Shown piece after piece: positions 1,910 to 20,409 of a stretch of DNA of 20,409 bases (the first letter of the stretch is position 1; the number at the start of each line of letters is the position of its first letter). Position numbers and translations under genes: made by a program. The stretch is from a virus. The notes under the pieces are model-generated. The model made no database searches and was not told the DNA's origin. It was given only the letters and a program-made list of their open reading frames with translations. The DNA lies in IMG/VR virus record IMGVR_UViG_3300030012_002593, positions 1-20,409 of that record, one strand, 5' to 3'.

Positions 1910-3715
1910 CTAATTTTTCTTAGTATTAATAGAAGATACTTCTGATTTATACTCATTTTCTAACTCACTTGACTCAGATATAAGTTGTTTCTCCTTATCA
2001 CCAAGACCTTTGAACAAAGTTTCGTAATGATGACTAGCAACAGCGCCATGTGCCATCTTCTTATCATGTGCACCCAATGGGTCTCTACCTCTAGCTCCAC
2101 TATCCTTACCATATTTGTTAGCTTCCTTTGGTCTTCCGGCGCCTGGTTGTCCTCCTTCTTCCGAACCACCCTCATCATCCAACTCATGACCAGTTCTACC
2201 CATAGCTAAATCAGATGGTGTACCTTGAGATTGTCCTGTCTTAGCAGGATCGTTACCCTCTGCTTCTATCTGTTGTCTTCTGAATTTATTTTTGTAATCA
2301 AAAATTATCTGTTCATCGTTTTCTTTCATTTCTTCATCGGTAAAACCAAACACATTTTTGTAAATCCATTCTGATGACATTAATCCATCCCTAACCATAG
2401 AATCAGCTAATGAAGTTTTCTGTGTCCATAGCTCTAACTTCTCTTGTTCATAGATTGTAGATGGATTTGTTAATCCTAAATCAAAATTTACCAATTCTTG
2501 GTCACGAAAACCTTGAGCGTATAGATGAACCACAGCTATTTTAGTCAACTCACTAACTACAATTCTCTGTATTCTCTCTATCGTTCTAGCAAAACGGACA
2601 TCTTCAGCAGCTAACGTAGCCTTAGAACCTAAACCTTCCTCATATCCTAAGAAAGCCTTCGGAACTCTTAGTGAAGCCATAAGTCTGTTTCTTAGATATT
2701 CGATATCGTCAACAGCATCGTAACTCAAACCACTAAGTGACTCAATATTAGTTCCGCTATCTCCACCCCTTACAGGTAAAAAGAAATCTTCTGTGAGGTT
2801 TTGGATGTTATAACGAAGATTGTAGTCACCTGTTTTCTCATCGATTACAGGAGCCTTCTTCATCTTATTGATTGTCTGTTGCATAAAATTATCAACTTCA
2901 GCTGGTGGTATGTTACCAATATCTAACTTAAATATTCTCTTCTCTGGCGCTCTCATAATACGATGTATCAACATAGCGTCTTCCATAAGAGTTAATTGTT
3001 TCCAAACCTTCCTACCAGCCTCTAACATAGAACGGCCGTAAGGAACGTAATTAGAATCTGATAGTAATCTGAAGTGAGCTACCTCATAGTTCTCAAATGT
3101 CTTTGGGTCTTTCTGTTTAGCTGAATGTCTACTAGCGTCACCTTGTGGTGTTAGTAGAAACTGAACCATCTGTGGATTATCAGGATCGTGTCCTTCCATT
3201 CTAGCCACATCGTAGGCTGACATTGGTGTTACATTTGTGATACCGTACTTATCGGTAATCTCTAATTGTAAAAAGAAATCACCATACTTATTCATATTAC
3301 GAACCCAAGGCCATAGATTGAACTCTATGTTCAAAATATCGTAAAATAGATTATGTAGTATATCATGTATTTGATTATTATCGGTAGTTATATTTAATAC
3401 CTTACCATATTCATTTTTCATCGTAGACTCATCCGAGTAGATGTCTAAAGCAGATGCAATTATAGAATCACTATCCATAGATTCATAATCCCTAAATAAT
3501 CCTAAACGGAGCTGCTGTTGATATAATTGGTCGTTATAACCATATTGTTGCATGTTGGAATACAACTTACTATACCTATCGACTAAGTTAGTTTGTACGC
3601 TGGATTGTAACTGTCCTGTATCTACAATCTTCAACTTCTTTCCACCGATATTACGAACAATCGTATTTGTAGAAAAAAGTCGTTTTAGTCTTGAAAATAA
3701 ATCTTTTTCTGCCAT
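1910..3715 (-). CDS. 20: Portal protein, T4 gp20-like
   Basis: A 601-residue protein forming the dodecameric ring at the head vertex through which DNA is packaged and released, and to which the tail joins. T4 gp20 is similar in length (about 520 residues) and shares several segments: the acidic, helical N-terminal region, DIYSDEST near residue 91, YVPYGRSMLEAGRKVWKQL at 223-241, RAPEKRIFKLDIGNIPPAEV at 255-274, and DDIEYLRNRLMASLRVPKAF at 336-355, matching the gp20 pattern of a DIEYF-type stretch followed by LNVP. Residues 487-560 form a Gly/Asp/Glu-rich low-complexity extension, then a short helical tail, which is longer than in T4. The ATG at 3715 has AGAGGT six bases upstream and follows the terminase stop by 11 bases, so the two are co-transcribed. 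Confidence 0.93.
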   Translation of the reverse strand: MAEKDLFSRLKRLFSTNTIVRNIGGKKLKIVDTGQLQSSVQTNLVDRYSKLYSNMQQYGYNDQLYQQQLRLGLFRDYESMDSDSIIASALDIYSDESTMKNEYGKVLNITTDNNQIHDILHNLFYDILNIEFNLWPWVRNMNKYGDFFLQLEITDKYGITNVTPMSAYDVARMEGHDPDNPQMVQFLLTPQGDASRHSAKQKDPKTFENYEVAHFRLLSDSNYVPYGRSMLEAGRKVWKQLTLMEDAMLIHRIMRAPEKRIFKLDIGNIPPAEVDNFMQQTINKMKKAPVIDEKTGDYNLRYNIQNLTEDFFLPVRGGDSGTNIESLSGLSYDAVDDIEYLRNRLMASLRVPKAFLGYEEGLGSKATLAAEDVRFARTIERIQRIVVSELTKIAVVHLYAQGFRDQELVNFDLGLTNPSTIYEQEKLELWTQKTSLADSMVRDGLMSSEWIYKNVFGFTDEEMKENDEQIIFDYKNKFRRQQIEAEGNDPAKTGQSQGTPSDLAMGRTGHELDDEGGSEEGGQPGAGRPKEANKYGKDSGARGRDPLGAHDKKMAHGAVASHHYETLFKGLGDKEKQLISESSELENEYKSEVSSINTKKN

Positions 3716-3726
3716 AGTTTTACCTC

Positions 3727-5304
3727 TTAGTTAATTAACCAATCTAACGACTCTTTTTCTCCGTTGGGTCCTACTTCTATTTCCCAAGAGTTCGTTTTGT
3801 TGGTTGGTTTTTGTGGTATCATCTGTGATGCTACACCACTCAAAGTTTTTTTAGTTAATTCTATTCCTTCATTTCTTAATCTTAATGCAGTATCTCTTAC
3901 CCAAAGAGTCAAAGCAAAACTCATAACTAAATCATCGTTATATCCCTGCATCGCTTCAGCTTTATTGTTGTTATATATAAATACAAACAACTCATCAATT
4001 AATCGATTTGAACGGACAATTACTGACTTTTCTCTAAAATATTCCTCTAATTTAGCGATTACCAAAGGTCTTGTCTTCATTGTCATAGAAAAACCAGCTA
4101 CCATATTCCTATCTTGGTTTCTATATCTATTATTTATCTGATGTTCCGTATCCACATACTTTAAATCTTTACTTGTGTAAAATAGGTTTTCGTATCCTCT
4201 ATCAATGCATTGCTGTAGAGCAGCCCAACCTATGTTATTATTCTCAACCACCAATAGGGCGTTGTTATATTCAGTAGCTACATTTACACATAGGTTACCA
4301 AAATCTTTTGTGGACATTCTACCCTTATACTCAGCTACCTGTTCCATAGTTTCTATATCCATAACGTGAAAAGCTGAATAATCTGAACCATCTCCTCTAC
4401 TGACATCAGCACTCAACACATAATCTTTTGTGTAATTTGGTGGTTGCCATATCCAAAGGTTACTATCAACACCTCTTTTTTCCAATGGGTCTTGAGCTTG
4501 TTTTTCTCTATACTCATCTAATATGATACCATCTATTACAGTTTGTCCTGAAGTAATAAAGTCACAATCACATTCTTGAGCCGCTAATGATGGGCCTAAT
4601 AGTTTGTCTTGCTCTTTTCTCCACTCATCGTTTCTCTCAGGATGTAGATTCCAATGCAACTTAATCCAATTCCAATCATTAGTTCCTTCTTCGGCACCAA
4701 CCCAAGTCTTATGAAACCAATTACCAACACCATTTGGTGTGGATAGTGCGATACATTGTCCACCAGTAGATAGCGTCTGTGAAGCAGCAGCCCATATTGG
4801 TTCAATCTTATCGATGAAAGCAGCCTCATCCAATATTAGCAGCGATAGTGCTTCTGAACGACCACTATCCTCACCACTCGATACAGCCTTTATCTGTGAA
4901 CCATTGTTATATCGTAAGGATAGTTTGTTATCTTCCGTACATTTCTGTTTCAACCAAGAGGGTAAGTTGGCATGCATTACTCTTACCTTAGTTACCAAGT
5001 TCTTAGCGGTATCTTGTTTGGTAGCGATTACCAATATGTTCTTATCTTGACCAAATGTCATCATCCAAAGAGAGTAACCAGCAGTCAATGTTGATAATCC
5101 CAACTGACGAGCTTTAAGTATAATGTTAAATCTATGGTCTTCAAACGTCTTCAAAGATTTTTCTTGATACTCATAAAGGTGAAAAGGAACCTTACCTTTC
5201 ATTGGATGCTGAACAACACAATACTTTTTTAAAAAGTATACAGGATCTTTAGCACACTTTTGGTACTCCTTTTTTATTACTTCTTTTAGAACACCTGGTT
5301 TCAT
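3727..5304 (-). CDS. 17: Terminase large subunit, T4 gp17-like
   Basis: The DNA-packaging motor: an ATPase that pumps DNA through the portal, joined to a nuclease that cuts concatemers. With the start at ATG 5304 it has 525 residues. The ATPase part shows an adenine/Walker A-type loop KARQLGLST (64-72, same style as T4 SRQLGKTT), Walker B LLILDEAAF with catalytic DE at 159-160, and the coupling motif STPNG (188-192). The RNase H-like nuclease part shows SADVSRGDGSDYSAF with Asp 300, VVENNN with Glu 354, and YNDDLVMSFAL with Asp 457/458 as metal ligands. All key residues look intact. The start overlaps the preceding stop as ATGA and has AGGA upstream; an in-frame TTG at 5340 lacks such support. 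No recognisable small terminase gene precedes it. T4 has genes 18 and 19 between terminase and portal; here they are absent. Confidence 0.96.
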   Translation of the reverse strand: MKPGVLKEVIKKEYQKCAKDPVYFLKKYCVVQHPMKGKVPFHLYEYQEKSLKTFEDHRFNIILKARQLGLSTLTAGYSLWMMTFGQDKNILVIATKQDTAKNLVTKVRVMHANLPSWLKQKCTEDNKLSLRYNNGSQIKAVSSGEDSGRSEALSLLILDEAAFIDKIEPIWAAASQTLSTGGQCIALSTPNGVGNWFHKTWVGAEEGTNDWNWIKLHWNLHPERNDEWRKEQDKLLGPSLAAQECDCDFITSGQTVIDGIILDEYREKQAQDPLEKRGVDSNLWIWQPPNYTKDYVLSADVSRGDGSDYSAFHVMDIETMEQVAEYKGRMSTKDFGNLCVNVATEYNNALLVVENNNIGWAALQQCIDRGYENLFYTSKDLKYVDTEHQINNRYRNQDRNMVAGFSMTMKTRPLVIAKLEEYFREKSVIVRSNRLIDELFVFIYNNNKAEAMQGYNDDLVMSFALTLWVRDTALRLRNEGIELTKKTLSGVASQMIPQKPTNKTNSWEIEVGPNGEKESLDWLIN

Positions 5305-5684
5305 AATAGCTTTCCTAAGTAAATTCCTACTGCAAACCAAAGATATCTATGTTCCCATATTTTTGGTTTTACCAACTTAATCATTTTTTGATTAGCTTCA
5401 TCTCTATCTTTCAATATCTCAATCTGTTCACTCTTCTTCAATAGAAGTAAAGAATCAGTTTTAACCTGACTTTCTAATTCTTTTATCAACATATCAGAAT
5501 CATCGATTACTTCTTTCTGCGATGCGATTAGGTTATTAGCATTGTCTACCTTACCCTGCCATTGTAAGTCCCTTTCCTTTATCATCTCCAGCACTTCGGA
5601 TTGTGTGTAGGATTGACTACTAGCAACTGATAGTACAAAGAATGATACCAAAAAGTATTTAAGTATTTTTACAGCTAACTTCAT
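5301..5684 (-). CDS. Membrane-anchored coiled-coil protein (127 aa), possible lysis protein
   Basis: The start at ATG 5684 overlaps the stop of the preceding gene as ATGA and has AAGAG close upstream; the stop overlaps the terminase start as ATGA. Residues 1-7 are short and basic (MKLAVKI), 8-23 are hydrophobic (KYFLVSFFVLSVASSQ), and this looks like a signal peptide or membrane anchor. Residues 28-105 form a polar coiled coil rich in Glu, Lys, Asp and Leu. The C-terminus (about 113-127, YLWFAVGIYLGKLL) is a second hydrophobic segment. An N-terminal anchor, periplasmic coiled coil and C-terminal hydrophobic end is the layout of a unimolecular spanin, though there is no lipobox Cys. Paired with the 102-residue gene before it, a lysis or envelope role is plausible but unproven. 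Terminase small subunits also use coiled coils, but they lack a signal peptide. Confidence 0.8.
   Translation of the reverse strand: MKLAVKILKYFLVSFFVLSVASSQSYTQSEVLEMIKERDLQWQGKVDNANNLIASQKEVIDDSDMLIKELESQVKTDSLLLLKKSEQIEILKDRDEANQKMIKLVKPKIWEHRYLWFAVGIYLGKLL
5310..5316 (-). promoter_or_regulatory. Shine-Dalgarno deciding the terminase start
   Basis: AGGAAAG on the minus strand lies 5 bases before ATG 5304, within the end of the preceding gene. It supports the ATGA-coupled start over the upstream in-frame TTG at 5340. Confidence 0.65.
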
Positions 5685-6525: not shown

Positions 6526-9500
6526 CTATACGAATTTTAACATACCTAAGATTTGATTTGCTGGAGCAAAAGCACCAGTATACTTATATAACTTTCCTTT
6601 GAACACAAAAGTAATACCTTCTGATGGTACTACTGACTTCAAACCACCTATAGCTTTTAGTCTATCCAGCTGAGTCTTTAATGTGTTTAGCACCTTTGGG
6701 TCTTTTGATTGTCTAACTTTACTAACCGCTTTTACTAAGTCTTTACGAATTTGTTGTGCAGCTTTGGCTGGATTAGCAGCTATGAAGTCACTAAGGTTAG
6801 ATAGTATCTCAGCTCCTAACTCAAAGAAAAGAACTTCCCAATCTCTGATATGTTTCTTTTGTAGCCCTTTTAAATCTGTTTTATCTGTTCTCAATATCCA
6901 ATTTAAAAACTTTTCATTCTTTATATCTTTTCTAATCTGTGGTATCTTATAAGATTTATCTAAGAATGCCCATCTTTTGGTTAACTTAACCAATATATTG
7001 TTCGGAACATTATACTTATATTGTTTTCCTGCATTGAAAATAAATTCCATCCAATAAGCTTGATGATAATCAGCTAAAGTGTTGCTATCTCTTAGTCCAT
7101 ACCTATTTTTCAATTTATTTAACTTACCTAAAAAGTAGCTTTGTCTTCTACTAAAATCCTTTACCTTTGGTAAATTAGATACAAAAGGTTTTGTAATACT
7201 ATAAGTCTTTTGTACATTTTGATTTATCTGTTTTATCATACCAGCTAACATTCTAGCACTTCCTCTATCTTCACCTATGGGAGAACCAGCAGAGTCATAC
7301 TCTATCGTTCCATGAAACTGAAGTAGAGACTTATCGTAAGGTATGACATTTGCTGTCTTAGGATATATAACCTCTAACGACATAAACTTCCTACCCTCAT
7401 CAAATATCTTATTCTTTTGAGCATCACTCAAACCACCAACCGCTTTCTGTAAATCTCTCATAGCGTAGACAAAGGCTTTCTCAATATCACCTCTACCTGC
7501 AAACATACTTTTTATTCCGTTGATATCTAATGCACCAGCACCGTAGTTTTTGATGTGACCTTTATTTCTAGCGGCGATAAGTTTTCCACCTTTCCAACTT
7601 ACCATTATATTTTGACCATCTGTTTTTTCTGTAACTGCTCCTTCACTATCCAGTTTACCCTGTAGTGTATTAATAATTAGTGTCTTGAAATCTGAAAACG
7701 TTAAATTTTTATCATCGAATGGATGATTTAGATGTCCGTATGCACCACCTTCTAGTAGTAACTTTACCTCACTATCTAAGTTTATCCTTTCGGTTAGTTT
7801 GAAATCTTCTTCGGTGTACTCATCAGCATCAGCACCAGCTGCAAATAGAGTACCGATGATATTGTTGATAGCTGCTGTGGTTCCCATCCAACTAACAACT
7901 TCCCAACCCAATGGTTCTATAACCTCACCCATCCACTTTTTATACTTTGTTACAGCGGATGTAGAACCAGCTGCTTGACCGTGGTCAAGATATGTAAGAG
8001 GAACTGACCTATACTCATCTTTGAACGTACTACTAGCACTATTCCTTAAAACATAATCGACTACCTTCCAACCAGCATCAGAATAAATTGAATCCAACCA
8101 TTCTTTGGATGTTTTTTTGTATGTGTTGTAGTCGGTGTAAAATGTAGATGGCCCGTCATCTAAATTACCAGCAGGTGTGGCAGTAGCCTCTATTAGAAAC
8201 TCCTTTATCAACTCATCGGATAAATCATAAGACTCAAATAATTTTTTGAATTTATTTGTCATCATATTATAGATACCTTTATCAAAGTATCCAAACACTT
8301 TTTTGAAAGACTTTTCTCTTTCCTTATCCTCTATCTTCGGGTCACCCAAAAGTTTTCTCATCTGTGTTCCGCTAACGGAACCGAACTGTGGAGCGGTGAT
8401 ATAGTAACCATGCTTTTCAAAACCCTCTAAGTTGTTTTTATTCTTATTGAAATCTTGATAGTAAGTCTTACCACCACTCTTCTTAGTTCCACCTTTGAGG
8501 CGACCGGCATCTTTTTTCCCAAACGCATAAACCACAGCGGTTGTGTCGGGATTGAATTTTTTGAGCGTATTAACTGCTACATACGGAGTTTTCTCCTGTA
8601 CGATTCTATTCTTCTTTATACCCATCTTAGTCATATGACGAACCTTTTCCTTAAAGTCCATTGGATGTCTTGGTGGTTGTTTGATGTTTGATGTTGTTAT
8701 GTAAACCTCATCTACCTTTGTCTTTAACCAATTGTATGTAGCTAGATGTCCGCTGTGAAATGGTTGAAATCTACCACCGAATATACCGATTGTTTTTTTG
8801 ATTTCTTTTTGTTCGTTTACTTTCTTGTAACCACTTCCGTAAGGAACTGAGGTGTTTCCCTTTCTCTTCATCTTCTTTACCATCTTACGACTTGGTGATG
8901 GTAACATACCAGCAGGTGCTCCGAACTCCTCATTCTTCTTTTTGGTTTTCTTCTTCATCTTATTTATGTATGCTCTGTAGACAGCAGCCTGTGAAGCCTT
9001 ACCCATCTCCCTAGCTCTCTGTTCCATAGCGACAGCAGCTTGTATCTTATGTGCGTGTGACTTACCGCTACCTCTAATTTTACTGACCGATGCTTTAGCA
9101 TCCTTTACTGTAGCAAACTTCAATCCTTTGATTGTACCCTTTGGATTTTCATCTGTGTATAAGTCTGAATGTTTCTTTGAGTTTCTTCTCTGACCTTTCT
9201 TACGAGGTATTCTTGGAGCCTCATTCATCTTTAGTTTTTTTCGTAAAGAACTAATTTTTTTTATAAGTTCCTTTTGTTTAGGAGAGCCAGGCAACATTTT
9301 CATAGCCTGTGTGTACATTCTAAACAAGTCTTTATTTTCTCCTAAAGCATCATAGCCTACAATAGCCATCGCTACATCTCTTGTAGAATCTCCTCTGAAT
9401 TGTTTCTTGACTTTCTTATAATATTTCTTAATCATAGAAGAGGCTTTCTTAGCAGATTTTGTATGTTTTGTAAGGAAGTTTTGTAAAACTTTAATTTCTT

Positions 9501-10506
9501 CTTTGTTCTCATCAACGCTCTTCAGAAAGTCCCTATCGTTTCCTTTTCTGAAAGTTACTATTTTCTTTCCGTTGATTGTAGGCATTCCAAACTTGTCCCT
9601 ACCGATTGATTTTACCTTTACCTTTTTGTTCTTAAATCTACCTGTGAGTATCGTATCACCGACACTAACATCTAATTTTATGGATTCAAAAAATCTAGAC
9701 TGACCAGGATCTTTGAATATCTTTTGATGTTTCTTTTCTCTTCTTATCCACTTTTTAGCTATAGGATTCTTTGGTGGTTTCTTAATAAACTTATCTATAC
9801 CCTTACTAACCAACATCTTAAAATGTTTCTTTATCTGTGCGTCTGAAAGAACTTTGTTGTTCTGAACAATCATAAAGTTAGAACCACCGAATAAACCTTG
9901 AAAGGCTCCCATATTGTTCTGTACATCCTGCCAACTTTTCTTGACGATGCTTGCTGGTACTACCCTATCTCTTTTTTCGTTTCGTTCCATAGCAACATCT
10001 AAGTTTGTATTTACGAAAACCATATAGGTATCATAACCCATATCCATTAGTTCTTTTCTTCTTTTCTTTATCTTAGAAAACTTATGACCAGTACCATCTA
10101 TGATAACACCTAACTTACCCTTTGTGTATAACCTTAATCTTTCTTGACTTAAATCCTTAGCAAATCTTCTCAATCCGCTTGTGCTATAATCAACAGGCTT
10201 ACCTTGCTTATCCACACCAGTTAGGTCAGCAAACAACTCATCAGGCATATTATCAATATCCGTAGTACCGAAGTACTTCTTCAGTAACATCTCTAACTCA
10301 GAGTCTTGGTTTACCATCTTTAAACCTGTCTTAGATACATTTATCTTTTCAGGTATACCGAATAGTTTTTGTGCTACAAAGGATTTACCGCTACCAGGTC
10401 CTCCAGCTAAAAAGATAGCCTTAAAGATACCAGGATCTCTAGCTCCTTCGTTTAGTATGTCTTCCTCTAAAAAAGGTTTCGTTAAGTATTCTGTAAGTTT
10501 ATCCAT
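6526..10506 (-). CDS. Fusion protein: P-loop kinase, HxGH nucleotidyltransferase and KxDG ligase-like domain (1326 aa)
   Basis: A single uninterrupted frame from ATG 10506 (AGGA just upstream). Residues 28-245 are a zeta-toxin/polynucleotide-kinase type P-loop kinase: Walker A GGPGSGKS (35-42), IIDGTG (135-140), and an Arg-rich lid ERNEKRDRVVP (174-184). Residues 275-325 look like a small beta-barrel. Residues 445-515 hold a conserved-looking HSDLYTDENPKGT and AMEQRAREMGK segment of unknown function. Residues 570-755 are a cytidylyltransferase-fold domain with GGRFQPFHSGH (577-587) and SGTQMR (712-717), as in NMN adenylyltransferases. Residues 760-905 are unassigned. Residues 910-1326 resemble ATP/NAD-dependent ligases or RNA ligases: KTDG with Lys 961, SLEVIYP (Glu 1045), and EGITFVFKGKLYKY near the end (1296-1309). 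Phosphorylating, adenylylating and ligating activities suggest nucleic-acid repair or NAD metabolism. The fold assignments rest on motifs; the physiological role is inference. Confidence 0.88.
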   Translation of the reverse strand: MDKLTEYLTKPFLEEDILNEGARDPGIFKAIFLAGGPGSGKSFVAQKLFGIPEKINVSKTGLKMVNQDSELEMLLKKYFGTTDIDNMPDELFADLTGVDKQGKPVDYSTSGLRRFAKDLSQERLRLYTKGKLGVIIDGTGHKFSKIKKRRKELMDMGYDTYMVFVNTNLDVAMERNEKRDRVVPASIVKKSWQDVQNNMGAFQGLFGGSNFMIVQNNKVLSDAQIKKHFKMLVSKGIDKFIKKPPKNPIAKKWIRREKKHQKIFKDPGQSRFFESIKLDVSVGDTILTGRFKNKKVKVKSIGRDKFGMPTINGKKIVTFRKGNDRDFLKSVDENKEEIKVLQNFLTKHTKSAKKASSMIKKYYKKVKKQFRGDSTRDVAMAIVGYDALGENKDLFRMYTQAMKMLPGSPKQKELIKKISSLRKKLKMNEAPRIPRKKGQRRNSKKHSDLYTDENPKGTIKGLKFATVKDAKASVSKIRGSGKSHAHKIQAAVAMEQRAREMGKASQAAVYRAYINKMKKKTKKKNEEFGAPAGMLPSPSRKMVKKMKRKGNTSVPYGSGYKKVNEQKEIKKTIGIFGGRFQPFHSGHLATYNWLKTKVDEVYITTSNIKQPPRHPMDFKEKVRHMTKMGIKKNRIVQEKTPYVAVNTLKKFNPDTTAVVYAFGKKDAGRLKGGTKKSGGKTYYQDFNKNKNNLEGFEKHGYYITAPQFGSVSGTQMRKLLGDPKIEDKEREKSFKKVFGYFDKGIYNMMTNKFKKLFESYDLSDELIKEFLIEATATPAGNLDDGPSTFYTDYNTYKKTSKEWLDSIYSDAGWKVVDYVLRNSASSTFKDEYRSVPLTYLDHGQAAGSTSAVTKYKKWMGEVIEPLGWEVVSWMGTTAAINNIIGTLFAAGADADEYTEEDFKLTERINLDSEVKLLLEGGAYGHLNHPFDDKNLTFSDFKTLIINTLQGKLDSEGAVTEKTDGQNIMVSWKGGKLIAARNKGHIKNYGAGALDINGIKSMFAGRGDIEKAFVYAMRDLQKAVGGLSDAQKNKIFDEGRKFMSLEVIYPKTANVIPYDKSLLQFHGTIEYDSAGSPIGEDRGSARMLAGMIKQINQNVQKTYSITKPFVSNLPKVKDFSRRQSYFLGKLNKLKNRYGLRDSNTLADYHQAYWMEFIFNAGKQYKYNVPNNILVKLTKRWAFLDKSYKIPQIRKDIKNEKFLNWILRTDKTDLKGLQKKHIRDWEVLFFELGAEILSNLSDFIAANPAKAAQQIRKDLVKAVSKVRQSKDPKVLNTLKTQLDRLKAIGGLKSVVPSEGITFVFKGKLYKYTGAFAPANQILGMLKFV
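6529..7794 (-). other. KxDG ligase-like domain of the fusion protein
   Basis: The putative nucleotidyl-accepting Lys is codon 7624-7626 in EKTDGQ. Downstream there is a basic AARNKGHIK, then SLEVIYP, and a terminal EGITFVFKG followed by KLYKY, in the order of ligase motifs I, III, IV and V. The roughly 250 residues between motifs III and IV are longer than in compact RNA ligases, suggesting an inserted helical region. Confidence 0.55.
8227..8799 (-). other. HxGH nucleotidyltransferase domain (NMN adenylyltransferase-like)
   Basis: Residues 570-760 carry GGRFQPFHSGHL at the domain start and SGTQMRKLL near its end, the two ATP-contacting signatures of the cytidylyltransferase superfamily. The GRFQP-type opening is that of NMN adenylyltransferases; pantetheine-phosphate adenylyltransferase is a less likely alternative. 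Confidence 0.82.
9772..10425 (-). other. P-loop kinase domain of the fusion protein
   Basis: Residues 28-245 begin KAIFLAGGPGSGKS and include IIDGTG and the lid-type ERNEKRDRVVP. The pattern is that of zeta-toxin/Pnk-like small-molecule or polynucleotide kinases. The substrate cannot be told from sequence. Confidence 0.85.
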
Positions 10507-10874: not shown

Positions 10875-11324
10875 TTAACCCAATAGATAACCACTAAAGA
10901 ATGAATCCAATTGAGGTGTTGAGAGGCCTGGATTACCGGAATCTACATCTACTTGAGCTGTTCCACCAGATTGTTTAAACTCTACATGAGCAGTATCACC
11001 AGCATCCATATCAGCTATAACAGTCATGTTCATTCCAAATTGATTGAGGTCAGCACTAAAATTAGGATCTATGAACCTTCTGTATTCACGATTTGAGGTG
11101 ACAATTCGTATACTAGTCCAATCAGCAGCGGTGTCGATATCATCCAACCTCAACTGAGTGGTAAGTAGGTATTTTCCGGTTACAGGTGCGGTAAAAGTAT
11201 CGGTAGAGTTGTCATAATTGCTTGCTTGGTCGTAAACTTCTGAATTAAACTCAATCTTTACTAATGTATTTATAGACAAATTATTATCTGTGCTTGAATT
11301 TAAAGCTAAGAAAGCAGGTTGTGT
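10875..11324 (-). other. C1q-like C-terminal domain of the giant fibre
   Basis: The final about 149 residues contain NYDNSTDTFTAPVTGKYLLT and end SFFSGYLLG. This is the C1q/TNF-type jelly-roll signature, a trimeric fold used at the tips of some phage and bacterial fibres. The match is by motif only. Confidence 0.7.
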
Positions 11325-14300
11325 ATTGTTGGTGTAAGTTCCACCGACATCTAAATCACCGCCTGCTGTTATACCACCAGCACTGTGATTAATTGTTACT
11401 CCTACCGAACCATTTCTGGCAAAACTTGTGGCTACGACTCCACCATCTAATCTATTTGTCAAACCAGTACTAGCAAAATATGAGCCTGAGAAAGTGGTAT
11501 CACCGGTGGTATTTATAACACCTTTATTTATCTGTATTCCTGATCCATTCGATGTAATCTCAGTTGTATTACTTGAATCACTAACTAATCTTAATCCCGC
11601 GCTAGTACCTGAAGTATTAGAAGAGTCGATTATTACACCCGAACCGATACCACCAAAATTACCAGCACTTGAAGCAGATACATGAACATATCCACCACCA
11701 GCTAATATACTATATCCAATACCATCTTCCCTATGGTCTACCGTACTAGCAGTAACATACATAGGTCCTACGCTTACAACACCAAAACTTCCTGTAGCAA
11801 TCTTTTTACCAAAATCTTCTTGCCTAAGACGGAGTTCACTACTTACACCTAAAATACCAGCAGTCTTTCTGTAGTACCCACTTCCATGATTGAGATGAGA
11901 ACCTACAATACCTGCCATTATACCTTTTTGAGAACTTAGACTTCCTATATATCCTGCAGGAATACTTGATAAAGCAAAAGAGCTTCTACCATAAATACCA
12001 GCTCTACCACCATATATATTGTTTGGATTTCTACTCTTAGAGTAACCTTGAATTACAGAAGAAGTGTAATGAAAGTTTGTTGCTGTAGCACCATGATCTC
12101 CCATCTGACCAACTAACTTAGCTTCATTACTACCCATAGAAGAATTAGAACCTGATATCTTTATTCCGTATACACTACTACCAAATACAACTTCACCAGC
12201 ACTAGATAATTGTCCTATCTGTATAAGTTCATCACCAGCCAGAGAACTTTTAGCAGCATCATACAATACTATTCTATTGTTATTTGACTGAAATTCCATT
12301 CTATCACCGGTATCACCACTAAAGAAAGAAGAGGTAGTCATACTCCAACCACCGATTGTACCTTCGGTAGATATTACCTTACCACTCATTTCCAAACCAG
12401 CAACTGATGCTGATAGAGCAGTCGTGTTTGCGTCTGTCTTTATTTCTAAAGATGTTCCATCTATTTTTATATGTTTACCTGTAGTAGGGCCAATTGTGGT
12501 TGTTGTTCCAAAAGAAGCAGAAATTTGTGTACCTCTTCTGATGTCAACTGAATTACTATCTATAAATACATTATTATTGGTTCCTGTTGTTTGTCCGATT
12601 GTCGCATTAGTTCCTTCGAATGCTGCTATCGTATCACCGGTCATTCTGATGAACATCCCACCATCATTTATAATCGTATGTTGACGAATAGGTCTTCCAA
12701 TACGCACACCACCATAATTGGCATCACTACCACCTACATCTGTTGTCACTTGTGCAGCATTCGATAGCTCAAAGGCTGATGCTGATATAGATATATTAGA
12801 TTCTTCACCATCGAAGAAAATGTGACCGCCATCAGTTTCACCTACGAAAAAATGTGCATGTGGTTGAAAACTTGGACCTGAACCGCTGACTTGCAGTAAA
12901 AGACCACCTTTTTTGAGAATTAAACCACCACCTGTTGTAGTGCTTGTTGCTCTAGTTCGAGCTTCTGCAATACTTGGAACGGTTAGTGAGCCACTAACTG
13001 TAGTCGCACCTGTAAAAATAGTAGTACCTGTTGTTTGTGGATTGTTTGATATTTCAATAAAGTTATCCTTATTGGCACCATTATCGTTCACAGCTTTCAT
13101 TACAAATCTTGTTTGACCACTATCTGCAATCAAAGCCTGTTCTGCTTTAACAGTTGCACTTGAACTTACTCTAGAAATAACAAATATGTCAGCGGATAGG
13201 TTTCGAGTTGTCGCAATTATAGCAGCACCTGGTTTTTCTACTGATGCTGATTCAAAACTAGATAGTTTTATATTACCACCTGTCGAAGTATTACTAAATG
13301 ACATCGATGTAAAAGAACCATTACCTAAATCCGTTATTTTTTGTAATTTCGTATCTGTTATTTCATATGCAGCTATTTCACCACTTGTAGCAGTAATCTT
13401 ACCACTAAGGTCAGCAGCTGAAGCAGTAATCTGTCCACTTGATTTTAATAACAATCCACTAGCACTTATCTCTGTAGAACTCAGAGTAAACCCACCTATA
13501 ACTCCTGAACCAGTAGCATTAATGGTCGTAGCAGTTATGTTACCACTAAGTAACATATCTGAAGCAGTTACCGCTCCTCTAGCCCCATCTAACGTAAAAT
13601 TACTACCGCTAATATGAATATTAGTGCCATCAAATATTAACGCTCTGTTACTACCATTACCAACATAGAATCTTGGATTACCACTATTATACTCTAGTTG
13701 TACTCCATCGTTACCAAAAGTTGTATTGTTTATAGTTAACGCTTTAGTATTTGAGTTTAGTCCTATATTGGTTCCACTTTTTATTTCATCAGCATCAATT
13801 GTAAATCCGCCGATTTCACCGCTTGTAGCAGTAATCTTGCCACTAACATCAGCTGAAGTTAATTTAGCAGCTGATGCTGTAATCTGACCTGAACCAGATA
13901 GAACCAATTCCCCATCTGAACTTATCAACCCAACAGAGTTTAAGGTAAACCCTCCTATAGTTCCAGCAGTATTTGCTGTTATTGTGTTAGCAGTTATATC
14001 ACCTGTAATATTTGCGGCTGATGCGGTAATCTGACCTAACGCACCATTTAGTAAAAGTTTTGGTATTCCAGCATTTACCGTTATGGAATTACCCATACCG
14101 CTATGAGCAGTACAGAAATAGTAAAGCGATGTTGGTGTGCTAGCACTTACTACGATGGTTAGCGATGTACTCGTAACAGTAACACCATCCGATATAACAC
14201 CACCATTGGAAGATGTTCCAATCCTAAATGGATGATTACTCATCACACTACTAGCCATAGTAAACACGTAGGTGTTACCGACTACAAATGTTAGAGCTGG

Positions 14301-17300
14301 TTGGTTAGCTCCGTCTATAAGGTAGTAACTAGAACCATTATTTGTTACAGTATAGTTTACTGTTTCTCCAGCTAAAGCCGTACTCTTTATCTCATCAGAG
14401 TCTATAGTGAAACCACCGATGTTACCACTATCAGCAACAATTGTACCTGACATAGAAACTGCTGAAGCAGTAATCTGTCCATTTGATTTTAGTCTTAACA
14501 GATTATTAGAACTTCTTATCTCATTAGAACTTAATGTAAATCCCCCTATGACGCCTGAACCAGTAGCGTTTATAGTTTCAGCAGTTATGTTACCATTTAT
14601 TAGAGCAGATGATGCGGTAATCTGTCCACTTGACCTTAGAATAAGATTACTATTAGAACTACTGATAGTGGTTTGGTCGATTGAAAATCCACCTATGACT
14701 CCTGAACCTGTAGCATTTATTGTGGTTGCTGTTATGTTACCATTTATTAGAGCATCAGAAGCTGTAATCTGTCCACTAGCTCCTTTTAGCTTTAATGTAC
14801 CTGATGTAGAATCTAAATCTGTTCCTATATTGAATCCACCTATGGTACCTGACTCTGCGGTAATCTTACCTGTAATCTGTGCCGCTGATGCTGTAATTTG
14901 ACCTAGTGCTCCATTGAGAACCAATGGTGGATTGATAACACTAATAGAGTTACCCATACCACTGTGAGCGGTACAGAAGTAGTAAAGTGATGTTGGTGTG
15001 CTAGAAGTAACAACAATGGTTAAAGTTGAACTCGTAATTGTTACACCATCTGTTATAGTACCACCATTAGCGGATGTACCAATTCTAAACGGATGACTAC
15101 CTAAAGTACCACTTGAAATATCAAATACATATGTGTTTCCTACAACAAAAGTAAGTGTAGGTTTAACAACATTATCGATACGATATCCCTCACCACTTCC
15201 ACCAGGAGCTGTTACTGTTAAACTTGTGTTACTACCGCCAGCCGTACTCTTTATCTCATCGGAGTCTATAGTGAAACCACCTATGTTCCCATCTGTAGCA
15301 GTTATCGAACCACTAATAGTCATAGTATTATTAGATGGGTCTAGATGAAAAGCTGAAGAACTAATTTCTATGTTATTATTACTACCGCTTATGAATTGTG
15401 CGCCAGTCTTTCCTAAGAAGAAATCGTTTGTTTTCAATATTACTGAGCTACCGCTAATAGTTGCTGTCTGTGTGTTTATATCGATTCCACCACCAGCTGA
15501 AAACTTTATATAATCTTTATCATTGGTATTACCCTTAATAAGAACGTTACCACTCGCATCAGCAAAAAATCCGCTATTGGTTGTAGCAGTAGTTGTGGCA
15601 TTTGCTAAACTACCAACCTCAATCGAACCAGCGGAGTTCAGAGTAACCACACCGCCTGTTAGTGTACTACTTCCTATTGTCCATCCACCAACTTTTCCAC
15701 CTTCGAATAATACTTTTGAGCCTGTGATTTGTCCTGATGAAGACATAACCAAATTATTACTTGTATCACTAATCGTAGTACCATCAACATCAAAACCACC
15801 AATAGAAGCAGATACGAATCTAGCAAAACCTTGTGCGGTAATCTGTGCCTTTGGCGAACCACCGGTTGGTGTAGAAATACTATTAGCTGATAAGTCACCT
15901 TCTATCGTCACATCGGACGTAATAATACCACCTTGTAATAAAAACTTAGAGCCGGTTATACCCCCATCTGCATTAAGAGTAAGTCCACCAGCTTGACTTG
16001 TTATAGAAGATGTTCCGATATCAAATCCACCAATGCTACCTTCTGTTGTGGTTATCTTACCACTAACATTAGCATCGGAGGCTGTTATCTGATTCATTAT
16101 AACATCACCATCACGTTGTATGTGAAACTTAGAAGAACTTATTTCTATGTTTCCATTACTACCACTTACAAACTGACTGCTACCACCTAAGAAAAATCTT
16201 TCTGTAAGAATGCTTACTGAAGAACCACTCAATATCGCATTCTGTGCCTTTAGAACAAAATTAGTAGTTGATTGTCCATCACCACCATTTACGGATGTAC
16301 CAAATGAAACTAAATTATTATTATCAGCTTTAAATAAAAAGTTACCATTATTTTGTATAAAAGCATTCCATCCACTATTATAATATCCTAAATAATTTGC
16401 TGTTAAGAATAAACCATTACCGCTTGGCGTATCACTTGGAACTATAATTTTATTGTTAGCATCAGTAACTATACGAGCTGCTGTTGATGAAGAAACAGAA
16501 TTTAGATTAGACTGAACAGCTGATGCTGATGCAGCAGCTCCTTGACTAAATGATAATGCAGTAGCTTCAGCATTTGTTTGAGCAGCTGATGCTGAAGCAG
16601 TAGCACCCTCACCGATTGCACTAGCAAAAGTTTCAGCACCGGTCTGTGCAGCTGAAGCTGAGGCAGTAGCTCCTACTCCCAATGCACTAGCAAAAGTTTC
16701 AGCGGCAGAAGCCGAAGCAGTAGCTCCAACTCCTAAAGCACTAGCAAAGGTTTCAGCGGCAGAAGCTGAAGCAGTAGCTCCAACTCCTAAAGCACTAGCA
16801 AATGTCTCAGCGGCGGATGCTGAAGCAGCAGCGCCTGTACCTATCGCACTAGCAAAAGTTTCAGCACTTGATTGTGCGGCTGATGCTGAAGCTGCAGCTC
16901 CAGTGCCTATCGCACTAGCAAAAGTTTGAGCACTTGATTGTGCAGCTGAGGCTGAAGCTGCAGCTCCAGTACCGATTGCACTAGCAAAAGTTTGAGCACT
17001 TGATTGTGCAGCTGAGGCTGAGGCAGTAGCTCCAATTCCTATAGCAGATGCTGAAGCAACCGCGCCTGTGCTTAATGCAGCGGCTGTTCCTGCTGCATCA
17101 AAGCTACCACTAACGGAAGCAGGTGTGGCAAATCCCGTACCAGCGGTTATGTTTATAGCGCCTGTAACTGTAAGTGTACTACCATCCCAAACTAGCTTAT
17201 CACCCAAACTGAACTTACCAGTACTATCCATATAGAAACCAGTGTTGGAGTTATTATGTGTTCCTACACCTTGAAATAATTTTTTAGCATTTCCATCTAT

Positions 17301-20300
17301 AACGATACCATTGGTTGTACCGACGTGAACCTTACCTGTAAACGAACCTGTTGTGGCCGTTATAGCACCTTGTAAAAATACATTCTCTGTGAATAATCCA
17401 AAGCCCGGTGAAGCGTTTCCGTATAGTAATCCACTACTTAATCCACTTAAATCACCTAATCTAGCTTTCAACTCTACATCGTAAACTCCGCTACCAGTTC
17501 TTTCAACAATATCCATATATGGTGTGGTTGTATCATTAGGATTAGCATTCAATCTTATGAAACCAGTTCCAACTTTTCCTGTTGATACTATAACCTGACC
17601 TGGATCTAATGATTGTGAAATACCAGCAGAATCCCCTAACGAACCAGATGCTCCCGCACTACCACTACGATAACCTCTCACTACAAAAAGTTTACCTCTA
17701 AAATCGTTTTCGCTTGATGGAAAATCTCTTGAAGCACTTTGAACTAACATATACTCTGTATTAAAACCTGTACCACTAATCTTTTTAGCAGATAGTATTT
17801 CGTTAGCTACAAAACCACCAACGTTAGCTACACTCATCGTAGCCGCACTAGCTGATATAGCAACCGAACCTGTTATGACTGTTGAGTTAGCTATGTATAG
17901 TTGTCCACCAACTGCGTTTACCGACTCTTTTTCAAATACTGCAGTAGAGAGAGTTCCTCTTATCTTTATATTTTGAAATTCAGCCTCACCGTTTCCAATA
18001 GAAGATATTCTCCAACCAGTTTGTCCACTAGCAAAATTAGAAGTTTGTATTATACCATTTGAATTTAAAACTAAATTTTCAGAATCTATTTGTGTGGAAG
18101 ATATCGTGAAACCACCAACTTCACCGGATGTAGCAGTTATCTTACCACTAGCATTCACATTAGTTAAATTAGCATTTGATGCAGTAATATCGTTCATTAC
18201 AACATCACCATCTCTCTGTAAATGGAACTTAGATGAACTTATTTCAATGAGATTATTACTACCACTTATAAAGTTTGTATTCTTCTTTCCAAAAAAGAAA
18301 CTTGGAGTTTCGATACTAACTGAACTACCACTAGCGGTAAGTCTGCCTGTTTCTATATCGACATTATTACCATCGAATTTTATAAACCTATTCGTTCCAT
18401 TACCTACATAAAATCTTGAGGTGCCACCATTAAATTGTAATTGTATTCCAGATTGTCCGAATGAATGATTTTTTATAGTTATTGCCTTTACATCACTGTC
18501 TAATCTTATCTCATCTGTAGAGTCAGCAAACCTCTCAGATGATATATCCCAACCGGCTATTGTTCCTGTTCCCGTAACATCTATTGTTCCATCAAATAGT
18601 GCATTTGAAGCACTAAGGTCACCATCAGGTGTAACAGCAAAATTAGATGATGATATAAAGTAAGTTGCAGATGAGTTTCCATCTAAATGAAATGAAGTTC
18701 CTTGTTGTAACTTTGTTCCACTAATCTGAAATCCAGCTATATTACCAGCAGTTGCTGTAACTGTACCTGACATAGAAACAGCGGAAGCAGTTATCTGTCC
18801 ATTTGATTTTAACCTAAGTTTATTATTAGAAGAAGCTATCTCTGTAGAACTTATGTTAAAGTTAGCTATTGTACCAGCATTATTTGCTGTTATTGTATTA
18901 GCAGTTATATCTCCTGTAATCTGAGCAGCAGAAGCAGTAATTTGTCCACTACTACCTTTTAATTTTAATGTAGAGCCAGCACTATTTGATAAATCATCTC
19001 CTATTGTAAAACCACCTATCGTACCACCAGCTGCTGTAATCTCACCACTCATTGTGACATTACCTTGTGAAGTAAGATGGAAGTTAGAAGAACTTATTTC
19101 TATGTTTCCGTTACTACCGCTTACAAACTGATTACTTTTCTTCCCTAAGAAAAACTTAGGAGTTTCCAATGTAATTTCACTACCACTAATAGTGGCTTTT
19201 AAAGTTTTGATATTTACACCATTACTAGAATCATATCTTAAAAAGTTTTGAGCACCATCACCAACGTAGAATCTTGGATTACCACTATTAAAACCAAATT
19301 GTATTCCTTCACTTGCGAAAGTATGAGAATTTACAGATATCTCTGCGCTATTTCCATTACCATTAAGTCTGATTCCACCGCCTGTGCTCGATATATTATT
19401 ACCACTTATATTCCATGCAGCAATTTTACCACCTGTAAGCAATACGTTTGAACCTGTTATCTGTCCACTTGATTTTAATCTTAGGTTGTCACCACTATCC
19501 TTTATCTCATCTGATGTTATATCGAATCCACCGATAGAAGCTGATACTGTTTTTAGTAAACCACCTGATGATATAGATGAGCTAGGTGTTGGAGCCGCTG
19601 ATGGAACTGCGATACTATCAGCCGTAATAGCACCTTGCACTGTTAAGGTGTTGTTTACAAATTGTAAAAACTGACCAGCACTTTTGTTTCCTAATAGTAT
19701 TGCAGAACCTGTAACATTACCTTGTCTCGTCAGATGAAATTTAGATGAACTGATTTCTATGTTTCCATTAGAACCACTAATAAAGTTTGTAGAAACTTTA
19801 CCTAAAAAGAATCTTGGTGATTCCAATGTAATTGAACTACCACTTATAACCGCTGTGTTAGTGTTTATATCAATGGTACTACCATTGAATTTTAAATGAC
19901 CACCACTTCCTACTGCTGAAAACAATGGTGTAGAACCACCTGCTACTCCAAAAAATACTCCTACCTCACCAAAAGATTTATCCACAAGAGCTACAGATGG
20001 TTGGATACTAATGAACGGACTGTTACTATTACCTCTTATGAGAACCTCTTGACCAGTTCCCAAAGACATTGAGGCTTGTGTTGATGAAAGTTGAATGGAA
20101 TTGGCTGAATCTGTAAGCCCACCACTACTTAAAGTAAATCCACCAATGGTTCCACCACTAAACAATACAGATGAGCCCGTAATCTGTCCACTATCTTTTA
20201 GTTTAAGAATTGAACCTACGGATACCTCACCTTCACTAACAGCTATACCACCTACAGCACCACCGGTCAAATCCAAAGCTGAAGCTGTCACATCACCGCT

Positions 20301-20409
20301 AGCTTTCACATTGAAGTTAGACGATGATATAAAGAAATTATTTCCTGTAGAGGAACCACTAATTAAAAAGTTAGCAGAAGAAAGAGCATCATTGGTAATA
20401 TTAAAACCA
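10875..20409 (-). CDS. Giant modular fibre/adhesin-like structural protein, N-terminus beyond window edge
   Basis: The frame is open to the right edge, so an in-frame GTG at 20309 is internal, not the start; at least 3177 residues are visible. Most of the protein is built of beta-rich repeats of two kinds: a GGFTI...EIxSxxxxLxLxSxGQITAS unit, and an FFLGK...FISGSNGNIEISSS-FHL unit. Between 17105 and 16500 lies an Ala/Ser-rich tandem repeat. Two cupredoxin-like domains are inserted into equivalent repeats at 15231-14925 and 14366-14062. The last roughly 149 residues (from 11324) are C1q-like. The composition (Ser, Thr, Gly, Asn, Ala; few Cys) is that of phage fibres. It is probably a tail or surface fibre that contacts the host, but no receptor-binding site is identified, and a virion decoration or neck fibre is possible. 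It is followed by a 100-residue gene. Confidence 0.85.
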   Translation of the reverse strand, partial: GFNITNDALSSANFLISGSSTGNNFFISSSNFNVKASGDVTASALDLTGGAVGGIAVSEGEVSVGSILKLKDSGQITGSSVLFSGGTIGGFTLSSGGLTDSANSIQLSSTQASMSLGTGQEVLIRGNSNSPFISIQPSVALVDKSFGEVGVFFGVAGGSTPLFSAVGSGGHLKFNGSTIDINTNTAVISGSSITLESPRFFLGKVSTNFISGSNGNIEISSSKFHLTRQGNVTGSAILLGNKSAGQFLQFVNNTLTVQGAITADSIAVPSAAPTPSSSISSGGLLKTVSASIGGFDITSDEIKDSGDNLRLKSSGQITGSNVLLTGGKIAAWNISGNNISSTGGGIRLNGNGNSAEISVNSHTFASEGIQFGFNSGNPRFYVGDGAQNFLRYDSSNGVNIKTLKATISGSEITLETPKFFLGKKSNQFVSGSNGNIEISSSNFHLTSQGNVTMSGEITAAGGTIGGFTIGDDLSNSAGSTLKLKGSSGQITASAAQITGDITANTITANNAGTIANFNISSTEIASSNNKLRLKSNGQITASAVSMSGTVTATAGNIAGFQISGTKLQQGTSFHLDGNSSATYFISSSNFAVTPDGDLSASNALFDGTIDVTGTGTIAGWDISSERFADSTDEIRLDSDVKAITIKNHSFGQSGIQLQFNGGTSRFYVGNGTNRFIKFDGNNVDIETGRLTASGSSVSIETPSFFFGKKNTNFISGSNNLIEISSSKFHLQRDGDVVMNDITASNANLTNVNASGKITATSGEVGGFTISSTQIDSENLVLNSNGIIQTSNFASGQTGWRISSIGNGEAEFQNIKIRGTLSTAVFEKESVNAVGGQLYIANSTVITGSVAISASAATMSVANVGGFVANEILSAKKISGTGFNTEYMLVQSASRDFPSSENDFRGKLFVVRGYRSGSAGASGSLGDSAGISQSLDPGQVIVSTGKVGTGFIRLNANPNDTTTPYMDIVERTGSGVYDVELKARLGDLSGLSSGLLYGNASPGFGLFTENVFLQGAITATTGSFTGKVHVGTTNGIVIDGNAKKLFQGVGTHNNSNTGFYMDSTGKFSLGDKLVWDGSTLTVTGAINITAGTGFATPASVSGSFDAAGTAAALSTGAVASASAIGIGATASASAAQSSAQTFASAIGTGAAASASAAQSSAQTFASAIGTGAAASASAAQSSAETFASAIGTGAAASASAAETFASALGVGATASASAAETFASALGVGATASASAAETFASALGVGATASASAAQTGAETFASAIGEGATASASAAQTNAEATALSFSQGAAASASAVQSNLNSVSSSTAARIVTDANNKIIVPSDTPSGNGLFLTANYLGYYNSGWNAFIQNNGNFLFKADNNNLVSFGTSVNGGDGQSTTNFVLKAQNAILSGSSVSILTERFFLGGSSQFVSGSNGNIEISSSKFHIQRDGDVIMNQITASDANVSGKITTTEGSIGGFDIGTSSITSQAGGLTLNADGGITGSKFLLQGGIITSDVTIEGDLSANSISTPTGGSPKAQITAQGFARFVSASIGGFDVDGTTISDTSNNLVMSSSGQITGSKVLFEGGKVGGWTIGSSTLTGGVVTLNSAGSIEVGSLANATTTATTNSGFFADASGNVLIKGNTNDKDYIKFSAGGGIDINTQTATISGSSVILKTNDFFLGKTGAQFISGSNNNIEISSSAFHLDPSNNTMTISGSITATDGNIGGFTIDSDEIKSTAGGSNTSLTVTAPGGSGEGYRIDNVVKPTLTFVVGNTYVFDISSGTLGSHPFRIGTSANGGTITDGVTITSSTLTIVVTSSTPTSLYYFCTAHSGMGNSISVINPPLVLNGALGQITASAAQITGKITAESGTIGGFNIGTDLDSTSGTLKLKGASGQITASDALINGNITATTINATGSGVIGGFSIDQTTISSSNSNLILRSSGQITASSALINGNITAETINATGSGVIGGFTLSSNEIRSSNNLLRLKSNGQITASAVSMSGTIVADSGNIGGFTIDSDEIKSTALAGETVNYTVTNNGSSYYLIDGANQPALTFVVGNTYVFTMASSVMSNHPFRIGTSSNGGVISDGVTVTSTSLTIVVSASTPTSLYYFCTAHSGMGNSITVNAGIPKLLLNGALGQITASAANITGDITANTITANTAGTIGGFTLNSVGLISSDGELVLSGSGQITASAAKLTSADVSGKITATSGEIGGFTIDADEIKSGTNIGLNSNTKALTINNTTFGNDGVQLEYNSGNPRFYVGNGSNRALIFDGTNIHISGSNFTLDGARGAVTASDMLLSGNITATTINATGSGVIGGFTLSSTEISASGLLLKSSGQITASAADLSGKITATSGEIAAYEITDTKLQKITDLGNGSFTSMSFSNTSTGGNIKLSSFESASVEKPGAAIIATTRNLSADIFVISRVSSSATVKAEQALIADSGQTRFVMKAVNDNGANKDNFIEISNNPQTTGTTIFTGATTVSGSLTVPSIAEARTRATSTTTGGGLILKKGGLLLQVSGSGPSFQPHAHFFVGETDGGHIFFDGEESNISISASAFELSNAAQVTTDVGGSDANYGGVRIGRPIRQHTIINDGGMFIRMTGDTIAAFEGTNATIGQTTGTNNNVFIDSNSVDIRRGTQISASFGTTTTIGPTTGKHIKIDGTSLEIKTDANTTALSASVAGLEMSGKVISTEGTIGGWSMTTSSFFSGDTGDRMEFQSNNNRIVLYDAAKSSLAGDELIQIGQLSSAGEVVFGSSVYGIKISGSNSSMGSNEAKLVGQMGDHGATATNFHYTSSVIQGYSKSRNPNNIYGGRAGIYGRSSFALSSIPAGYIGSLSSQKGIMAGIVGSHLNHGSGYYRKTAGILGVSSELRLRQEDFGKKIATGSFGVVSVGPMYVTASTVDHREDGIGYSILAGGGYVHVSASSAGNFGGIGSGVIIDSSNTSGTSAGLRLVSDSSNTTEITSNGSGIQINKGVINTTGDTTFSGSYFASTGLTNRLDGGVVATSFARNGSVGVTINHSAGGITAGGDLDVGGTYTNNTQPAFLALNSSTDNNLSINTLVKIEFNSEVYDQASNYDNSTDTFTAPVTGKYLLTTQLRLDDIDTAADWTSIRIVTSNREYRRFIDPNFSADLNQFGMNMTVIADMDAGDTAHVEFKQSGGTAQVDVDSGNPGLSTPQLDSFFSGYLLG
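14062..14366 (-). other. Cupredoxin-like domain, second copy
   Basis: The segment runs from NYTVTNNGSS to ITVNAG and contains LTFVVGNTYVF, HPFRIG, and YYFCTAHSGMGN. The Cys codon is 14112-14114 and the first His codon 14232-14234. His, Cys, His and Met in this order and spacing match type-1 copper ligands (C-x2-H-x2-M). Confidence 0.65.
14925..15231 (-). other. Cupredoxin-like domain, first copy
   Basis: The segment runs from SLTVTAPGGS to ISVINPP and contains LTFVVGNTYVF, HPFRIG (His codon 15093-15095) and YYFCTAHSGMGN (Cys codon 14973-14975, second His 14964-14966, Met 14955-14957). All four putative copper ligands are also conserved in the copy 861 bases downstream. Confidence 0.65.
16500..17105 (-). 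repeat. Ala/Ser-rich tandem repeat within the fibre gene
   Basis: In-frame tandem units of 22 residues (TFASAIGTGAAASASAAQSSAQ type) and 18 residues (TFASALGVGATASASAAE type). The shared plus-strand octamer CTAGCAAA starts at 16621, 16687, 16741, 16795, 16849, 16915 and 16981, giving spacings of 66, 54, 54, 54, 66 and 66 bases. The short units lack four residues (QSSA-type). Three short units are almost identical at DNA level, a sign of recent amplification. Confidence 0.9.

Follow-up and report, generated by a model that had tools for sequence, protein, structure and literature searches.

The window analyzed here is a 20,409-base virus record, in which a very long fibre-like open reading frame (ORF) lies upstream of T4-like portal and terminase genes, all on the minus strand. 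Its relevant features are:

1910-3715, minus: T4-like portal protein gp20
3727-5340, minus: T4-like large terminase
10875-20408, minus: fibre ORF, at least 3177 aa, with its 5' end open at the window edge
10881-11270, minus: C1q-like domain (Pfam PF00386) at the fibre C-terminus, aa 3047-3176
13773-13814, minus: insert-free fibre module (IGGFTIDADEIKSG-TNIGLNS, aa 2199), an internal comparator for the insertion point
14058-14384, minus: cupredoxin domain copy 2 (STALAGET...ITVNAGIPK), ~105 aa
14094-14114, minus: copy 2 ligand loop CTAHSGM (Cys 14112-14114, His 14103-14105, Met 14094-14096)
14232-14234, minus: copy 2 ligand His (HPFRIG)
14925-15248, minus: cupredoxin domain copy 1 (STAGGSNT...ISVINPP), ~105 aa
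14955-14975, minus: copy 1 ligand loop CTAHSGM (Cys 14973-14975, His 14964-14966, Met 14955-14957)
15093-15095, minus: copy 1 ligand His (HPFRIG)

The T4-like portal protein places the contig among the T4-like phages, and the nearest relatives of its large terminase are those of Microcystis phage Mel-JY01 (56.5%) and the Flavobacterium phages immuto (53.8%). When the phage collection was searched at the DNA level with the domain region we obtained zero matches, so that collection contains no close relative of the window phage. The fibre ORF consists of repeats of the type 'IGGFTI..EI...L.L...GQITASA' and ends in a C1q-like domain (E 1.5e-6; 28.9 bits against a cut-off of 23.7) that is likely the trimeric tip. 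Judging from the repeats, the C1q domain and the packaging genes nearby, this ORF of 3177 or more residues can be classed as a phage tail fibre. Elsewhere in the window (6526-10506, minus) is a gene for a 1326-aa protein with a kinase-like AAA_33/zeta-type domain (aa 31-197) and a cytidylyltransferase domain (aa 575-659); by eye only, its C-terminal part also carries a nucleic-acid ligase-like KTDGQN motif.

A preliminary description of this DNA had singled out positions 14062-15231, a span that takes in both domain copies and the three fibre modules in between, and had claimed that each copy keeps a His (HPFRIG) and a Cys, His and Met (CTAHSGM), and that both copies are inserted at the same point of a repeated module. 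Both claims hold. All of the ligand residues are in frame in one minus-strand ORF, and each copy is flanked by '..GNIGGFTIDSDEIKSTA' and 'L.LNGALGQITASAA.ITG'. Only two Cys are found in the 3177 residues of the fibre, and these are the ligand Cys of the two CTAHSGM motifs. The copies share 63% protein identity, or 71% DNA identity when their flanks are included, and their cores differ by a dN of 0.145 and a dS of 1.28 (dN/dS about 0.11), which indicates purifying selection. The shared insertion point is best explained by one insertion followed by duplication of the module together with its insert; two independent insertions at one point were considered and rejected, because module duplication is simpler. 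A copy in a related contig (L004) shares 89% identity with copy 2, against the 63% between the two window copies, and so the duplication predates the split between the window and that contig. Both domains are situated mid-shaft, ~1000 residues ahead of the C1q-like tip.

An AlphaFold2 model of the domain, built with 84 family sequences, was predicted with a pLDDT of 91.7 and a pTM of 0.84. It is a Greek-key beta-sandwich with the 7-8 strands that characterize the cupredoxin superfamily fold. In a Foldseek comparison with the PDB, the best matches were rusticyanin (E 4e-5) and AcoP, followed by copper nitrite reductase, plastocyanin, pseudoazurin and laccases; protein arginine deiminase 2 was also matched, with weaker E-values. 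VIA-align superposed the model on cupredoxin domains with Z-scores of 9.3-8 and an rmsd of 2.6-3.3 over 92-100 residues, and all of the 50 matches listed had the cupredoxin fold. An immunoglobulin (Ig) or other non-copper fold as the nearest match was rejected, as cupredoxins head both structure lists. Viral proteins named 'Beta-sandwich protein', from Marseillevirus LCMAC and Pithovirus LCPAC, also match the model fold (BFVD A0A481YVH3, A0A481Z7Q7 and others, E about 1e-7).

The positions of the ligands in the model are the canonical cupredoxin ones: the first His is predicted just ahead of strand 54-59, the Cys at the end of strand 87-92, and the second His and the Met in the loop ahead of strand 100-105. 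VIA-align sets model residue 105, which is 7 residues past Met98 of the model, against residue 155 of rusticyanin, whose Met148 is named in structure entry titles. As modelled, then, His, Cys, His and Met follow one another in the order and at the structural positions of a type-1 copper site. In a 219-aa model that includes the fibre flanks, the domain was predicted with a pLDDT of about 77-96 and the flanks mostly with 50-70, a pattern that would fit a shaft that folds only as a trimer and carries the domain as an independent insert.

Direct sequence comparison of the domain with known blue-copper proteins gave little. A PDB sequence search with phmmer and a profile returned no significant match to the domain, the window copies had no hit to Pfam Copper-bind (PF00127), and all of their direct Pfam matches fell under the cut-offs, including those to the At5g54830-like family PF25489 (21.7 and 16.5 bits for the copies and 23.5 bits for the whole fibre, against a cut-off of 27). 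Among the 84 family members, 6 gave weak direct hits to Copper-bind at E 0.01 or better, and weak HMM alignments of the family to pseudoazurin and to a multicopper oxidase coincided at the ligand positions. A stronger link is provided by a 148-aa secreted protein of Prochlorococcus MIT 9201 (L199), which the family profile matches at E 6e-13 and which has a plastocyanin-type CSPHASFGM loop and the first-ligand motif HPFYIKT. This protein passes the Copper-bind (plastocyanin/azurin) cut-off of 21.2 with 29.4 bits, and also aligns with the phage family profile at His, Cys, His and Met (hhalign E 8.8e-13). A second small secreted protein (L201) resembles it.

If these domains do bind a metal, it could be another soft metal, or the site could be a structural one that holds only Cu(I), instead of a blue type-1 copper centre. 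Sequence cannot tell the identity of a metal, and there are two features that might alter the geometry. First, the residue after the first His is a Pro. Asn is usual at this position in small blue-copper proteins, while multicopper oxidases also have His-Pro at the first ligand, and His-Pro is likewise seen there in the alignment to 6vox. Second, the loop Cys-x2-His-x2-Met is of the amicyanin type, the shortest kind. We nevertheless regard a different metal or a Cu(I)-only site as distinctly unlikely, given that the four ligands are the same set in the same order as in plastocyanin and amicyanin, and that a plastocyanin-type loop is present in the relative that scores above the Copper-bind cut-off.

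We reasoned about selection on the site from a set of copies collected without bias toward the ligands, in three scans with single N-terminal queries that stop ahead of the Cys. These yielded 182 distinct copies, one of which is incomplete at a contig end. The complete ligand set (HCHM) was kept in 179 of the 181 complete copies, the other two having HSSM. The 182 copies make up only nine clusters at 60% identity and are therefore fewer independent tests than their number suggests; mean identity between cluster representatives is 47%. Because the queries contained no Cys, His or Met of the loop, this conservation argues that the site is under selection, and a chance motif was rejected on the same grounds. 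A YxCxxHxxM scan, which is biased for Cys, His and Met and unbiased for the first His, gave a similar picture, with the first His kept in 98% of 89 copies. Where a ligand was lost, the others had usually been lost together with it (YSQM, LNQM, YSEL, HSSM), and a search seeded with a ligand-free copy led to loci that lack the ligands as well. One subfamily on phage contigs (L205-L209) has lost the copper ligands (YSQM, LNQM, YCEL, YSEL). These data, together with the model fold and the bridge to Copper-bind, bear out the earlier proposal of a cupredoxin with intact type-1 ligands, as far as sequence and predicted structure can.

Ligand-free relatives argue against a simple copper reading. ORF080 of phage P-SS2 (L372:3992-4330), previously called only 'Cyanophage T4-like hypotheticals', is a one-domain member of the same family (hhalign E 3.4e-21) in which the His, Cys and His of the site are absent. 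Mass spectrometry of purified virions detected this protein by an average of nine peptides (PMC2784084 Table 2), which shows that the fold alone can be part of a virion and that metal is not required for this. The mass-spectrometric support for the family in virions comes from this ligand-free relative, and the HCHM genes are putative virion components by their 'virion structural protein' annotation. S-CREM2, whose virion proteome has been published (PMC10665884), encodes only a ligand-free distant relative within the genome stretches examined. Given such relatives in virions and in other phage ORFs, and the resemblance of the cupredoxin fold to Ig domains, the domain could be a metal-free decoration, an Ig-like adhesive beta-sandwich comparable to the ephrins, with the ligands kept for packing or by recent descent. 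We consider this unlikely: the ligands persist in 179 of 181 copies despite a mean identity of 47% between cluster representatives, they are lost as a set, the fibre has no other Cys, and such strong conservation would be surprising for a lone unpaired Cys that is not a ligand.

The preliminary description had suggested that similar segments may be present in other marine phages, which proved to be right and an understatement, as relatives occur on hundreds of viral contigs and in 117 phage records. The YxCxxHxxM scan of viral contigs identified the domain in at least 578 of 600 candidates, and scans with N-terminal queries found it in at least 592, at least 541 and at least 572 of 600 candidates each. 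A consensus-like query matched 117 records of the annotated phage collection; most of them are phages of Synechococcus and Prochlorococcus, and Pelagibacter and Methylophilales phages are also represented. The queries of this search and of the scan that gave 592 of 600 were hand-written consensus-like sequences and not natural proteins. Isolates with HCHM copies include Prochlorococcus phage P-HM2 and Pelagibacter phage EXVC032P. The genes with the domain are annotated as coding for tail fibres, for baseplate wedge/fibre connectors or for unnamed virion proteins. Of the 194 ORFs that were collected first, 136 have the domain internally and 58 have it near the C-terminus. Three PHROG families hold this very domain (E 8e-17 to 5e-14), namely 30742 (tail fiber protein), 677 (baseplate wedge tail fiber protein connector) and 6005 (virion structural protein), and their names refer only to tail or virion, with no cupredoxin or copper site.

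The domain is also found in cells. SAR86 bacteria encode one-domain lipoproteins with HCHM, chromosomally between metabolic genes, and 17 of 40 genomes of the family have a match; inspected by eye, the neighbouring genes included no evident copper genes. These lipoproteins carry the same domain as the phage fibre, but differ in being cellular and chromosomal, with a lipobox-like signal and a free-standing domain outside any fibre. Examples of ~180 aa with one HCHM domain are encoded at L104:5857-6405, L107:5857-6402 and L375-L377, and at the first two of these loci the gene adjoins one for an apparently secreted protein of ~970 aa. Other cellular homes are giant adhesin-like proteins of Prochlorococcus MIT 9201 and Flavobacteriaceae, and a Litorivicinus protein, while the hits in Pelagibacteraceae resemble phage fibre genes and may represent such genes. 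No close relative was found on plasmids. From these sequences, the best reading of the distribution is a mobile domain family with members both in the virion fibres and baseplates of ocean phages and in proteins that marine bacteria secrete or display on their surface.

Altogether, we favor the interpretation, with a probability of roughly 55%, that each of the two segments folds on its own as a cupredoxin domain whose type-1-like copper site is complete, and that both belong to a mobile family and serve as side modules on a T4-like fibre shaft. The fibre would fold in the reducing cytoplasm of the host, where its copper sites are probably empty, and after lysis the sites could load copper from the surroundings. 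A loaded site would be expected to stiffen the beta-sandwich and could shape a contact face, and the rigid sandwiches might then stand out from the shaft as decorations and touch the host surface or extracellular material. Copper would in this case act mainly in fold stability or the shape of the contact face, and not in redox chemistry. As possible roles, the preliminary description had offered a more stable fold, capture of seawater copper, or contact with a copper-bearing surface receptor. The mid-shaft location, ~1000 residues before the C1q tip, points to a decorating or avidity role over that of a primary receptor tip. We infer the copper occupancy, surface exposure, role in adsorption and any redox activity of the fibre domains.

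Alternatively, copper could serve as a receptor bait, such that a host copper-uptake or copper-protein receptor would recognise or exchange the fibre copper. This would parallel the 'Trojan Horse' hypothesis for iron, in which HxH-bound iron is carried in phage tail fibres (PMC11705849). The domain does occur on receptor-side fibres and baseplates, and the iron at the tip of T4 gp37, which that paper cites, sets a precedent. Such a role seems improbable to us, however, as the domains here lie far from the tip, the phages that share the domain infect very different hosts, bacterial surface proteins have it too, and no receptor is known. Finally, the type-1 ligand set and the electron-transfer proteins among the nearest folds could suggest a redox-active domain, used for surface electron transfer, for copper-catalysed oxidation or to shield the virion from reactive oxygen. 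We recognised no partner redox domain in the fibre, and no electron partner is evident for a domain in the middle of a fibre, which makes this role very improbable.

Given how widespread the domain is among ocean phages, copper in its sites would link the adsorption of phages to the marine copper pool, in parallel to the iron hypothesis. Many 'hypothetical' and 'virion structural' proteins also gain a name and a testable site. A further step, which we think rather unlikely, is that the virions of many abundant ocean phages carry copper in dedicated type-1 sites on their fibres and baseplates, as a pool of seawater copper and an attachment factor. Cupredoxins are known as cellular electron carriers and as domains of oxidases. 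In the open library of papers that was searched, we found no paper that joins cupredoxins with phage fibres or virions, and a cupredoxin module in virion proteins with its type-1 ligand set intact, as predicted from sequence, appears to be undescribed in the searchable literature.

How do these domains compare to known systems? Iron bound by HxH motifs occurs on T4 gp37 and on marine phage fibres, with a possible role in adsorption or metal cycling (PMC11705849). Metal on phage fibres is thus not unheard of, and the predicted copper would be a further case, although the sites differ in kind: the HxH fibres hold octahedral iron with motifs of the fibre itself, whereas the window domain has a predicted copper site inside a folded side domain. 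In sequence, the phage domain is too distant for direct assignment to any family of small type-1 copper proteins, from which it also differs in the Pro that follows the first His. It nevertheless shares with plastocyanin and amicyanin the cupredoxin fold and a His...Cys-x2-His-xn-Met set in the same structural places. Unlike these two proteins, and unlike rusticyanin, AcoP and pseudoazurin, it is embedded in a fibre and is not a free electron carrier.
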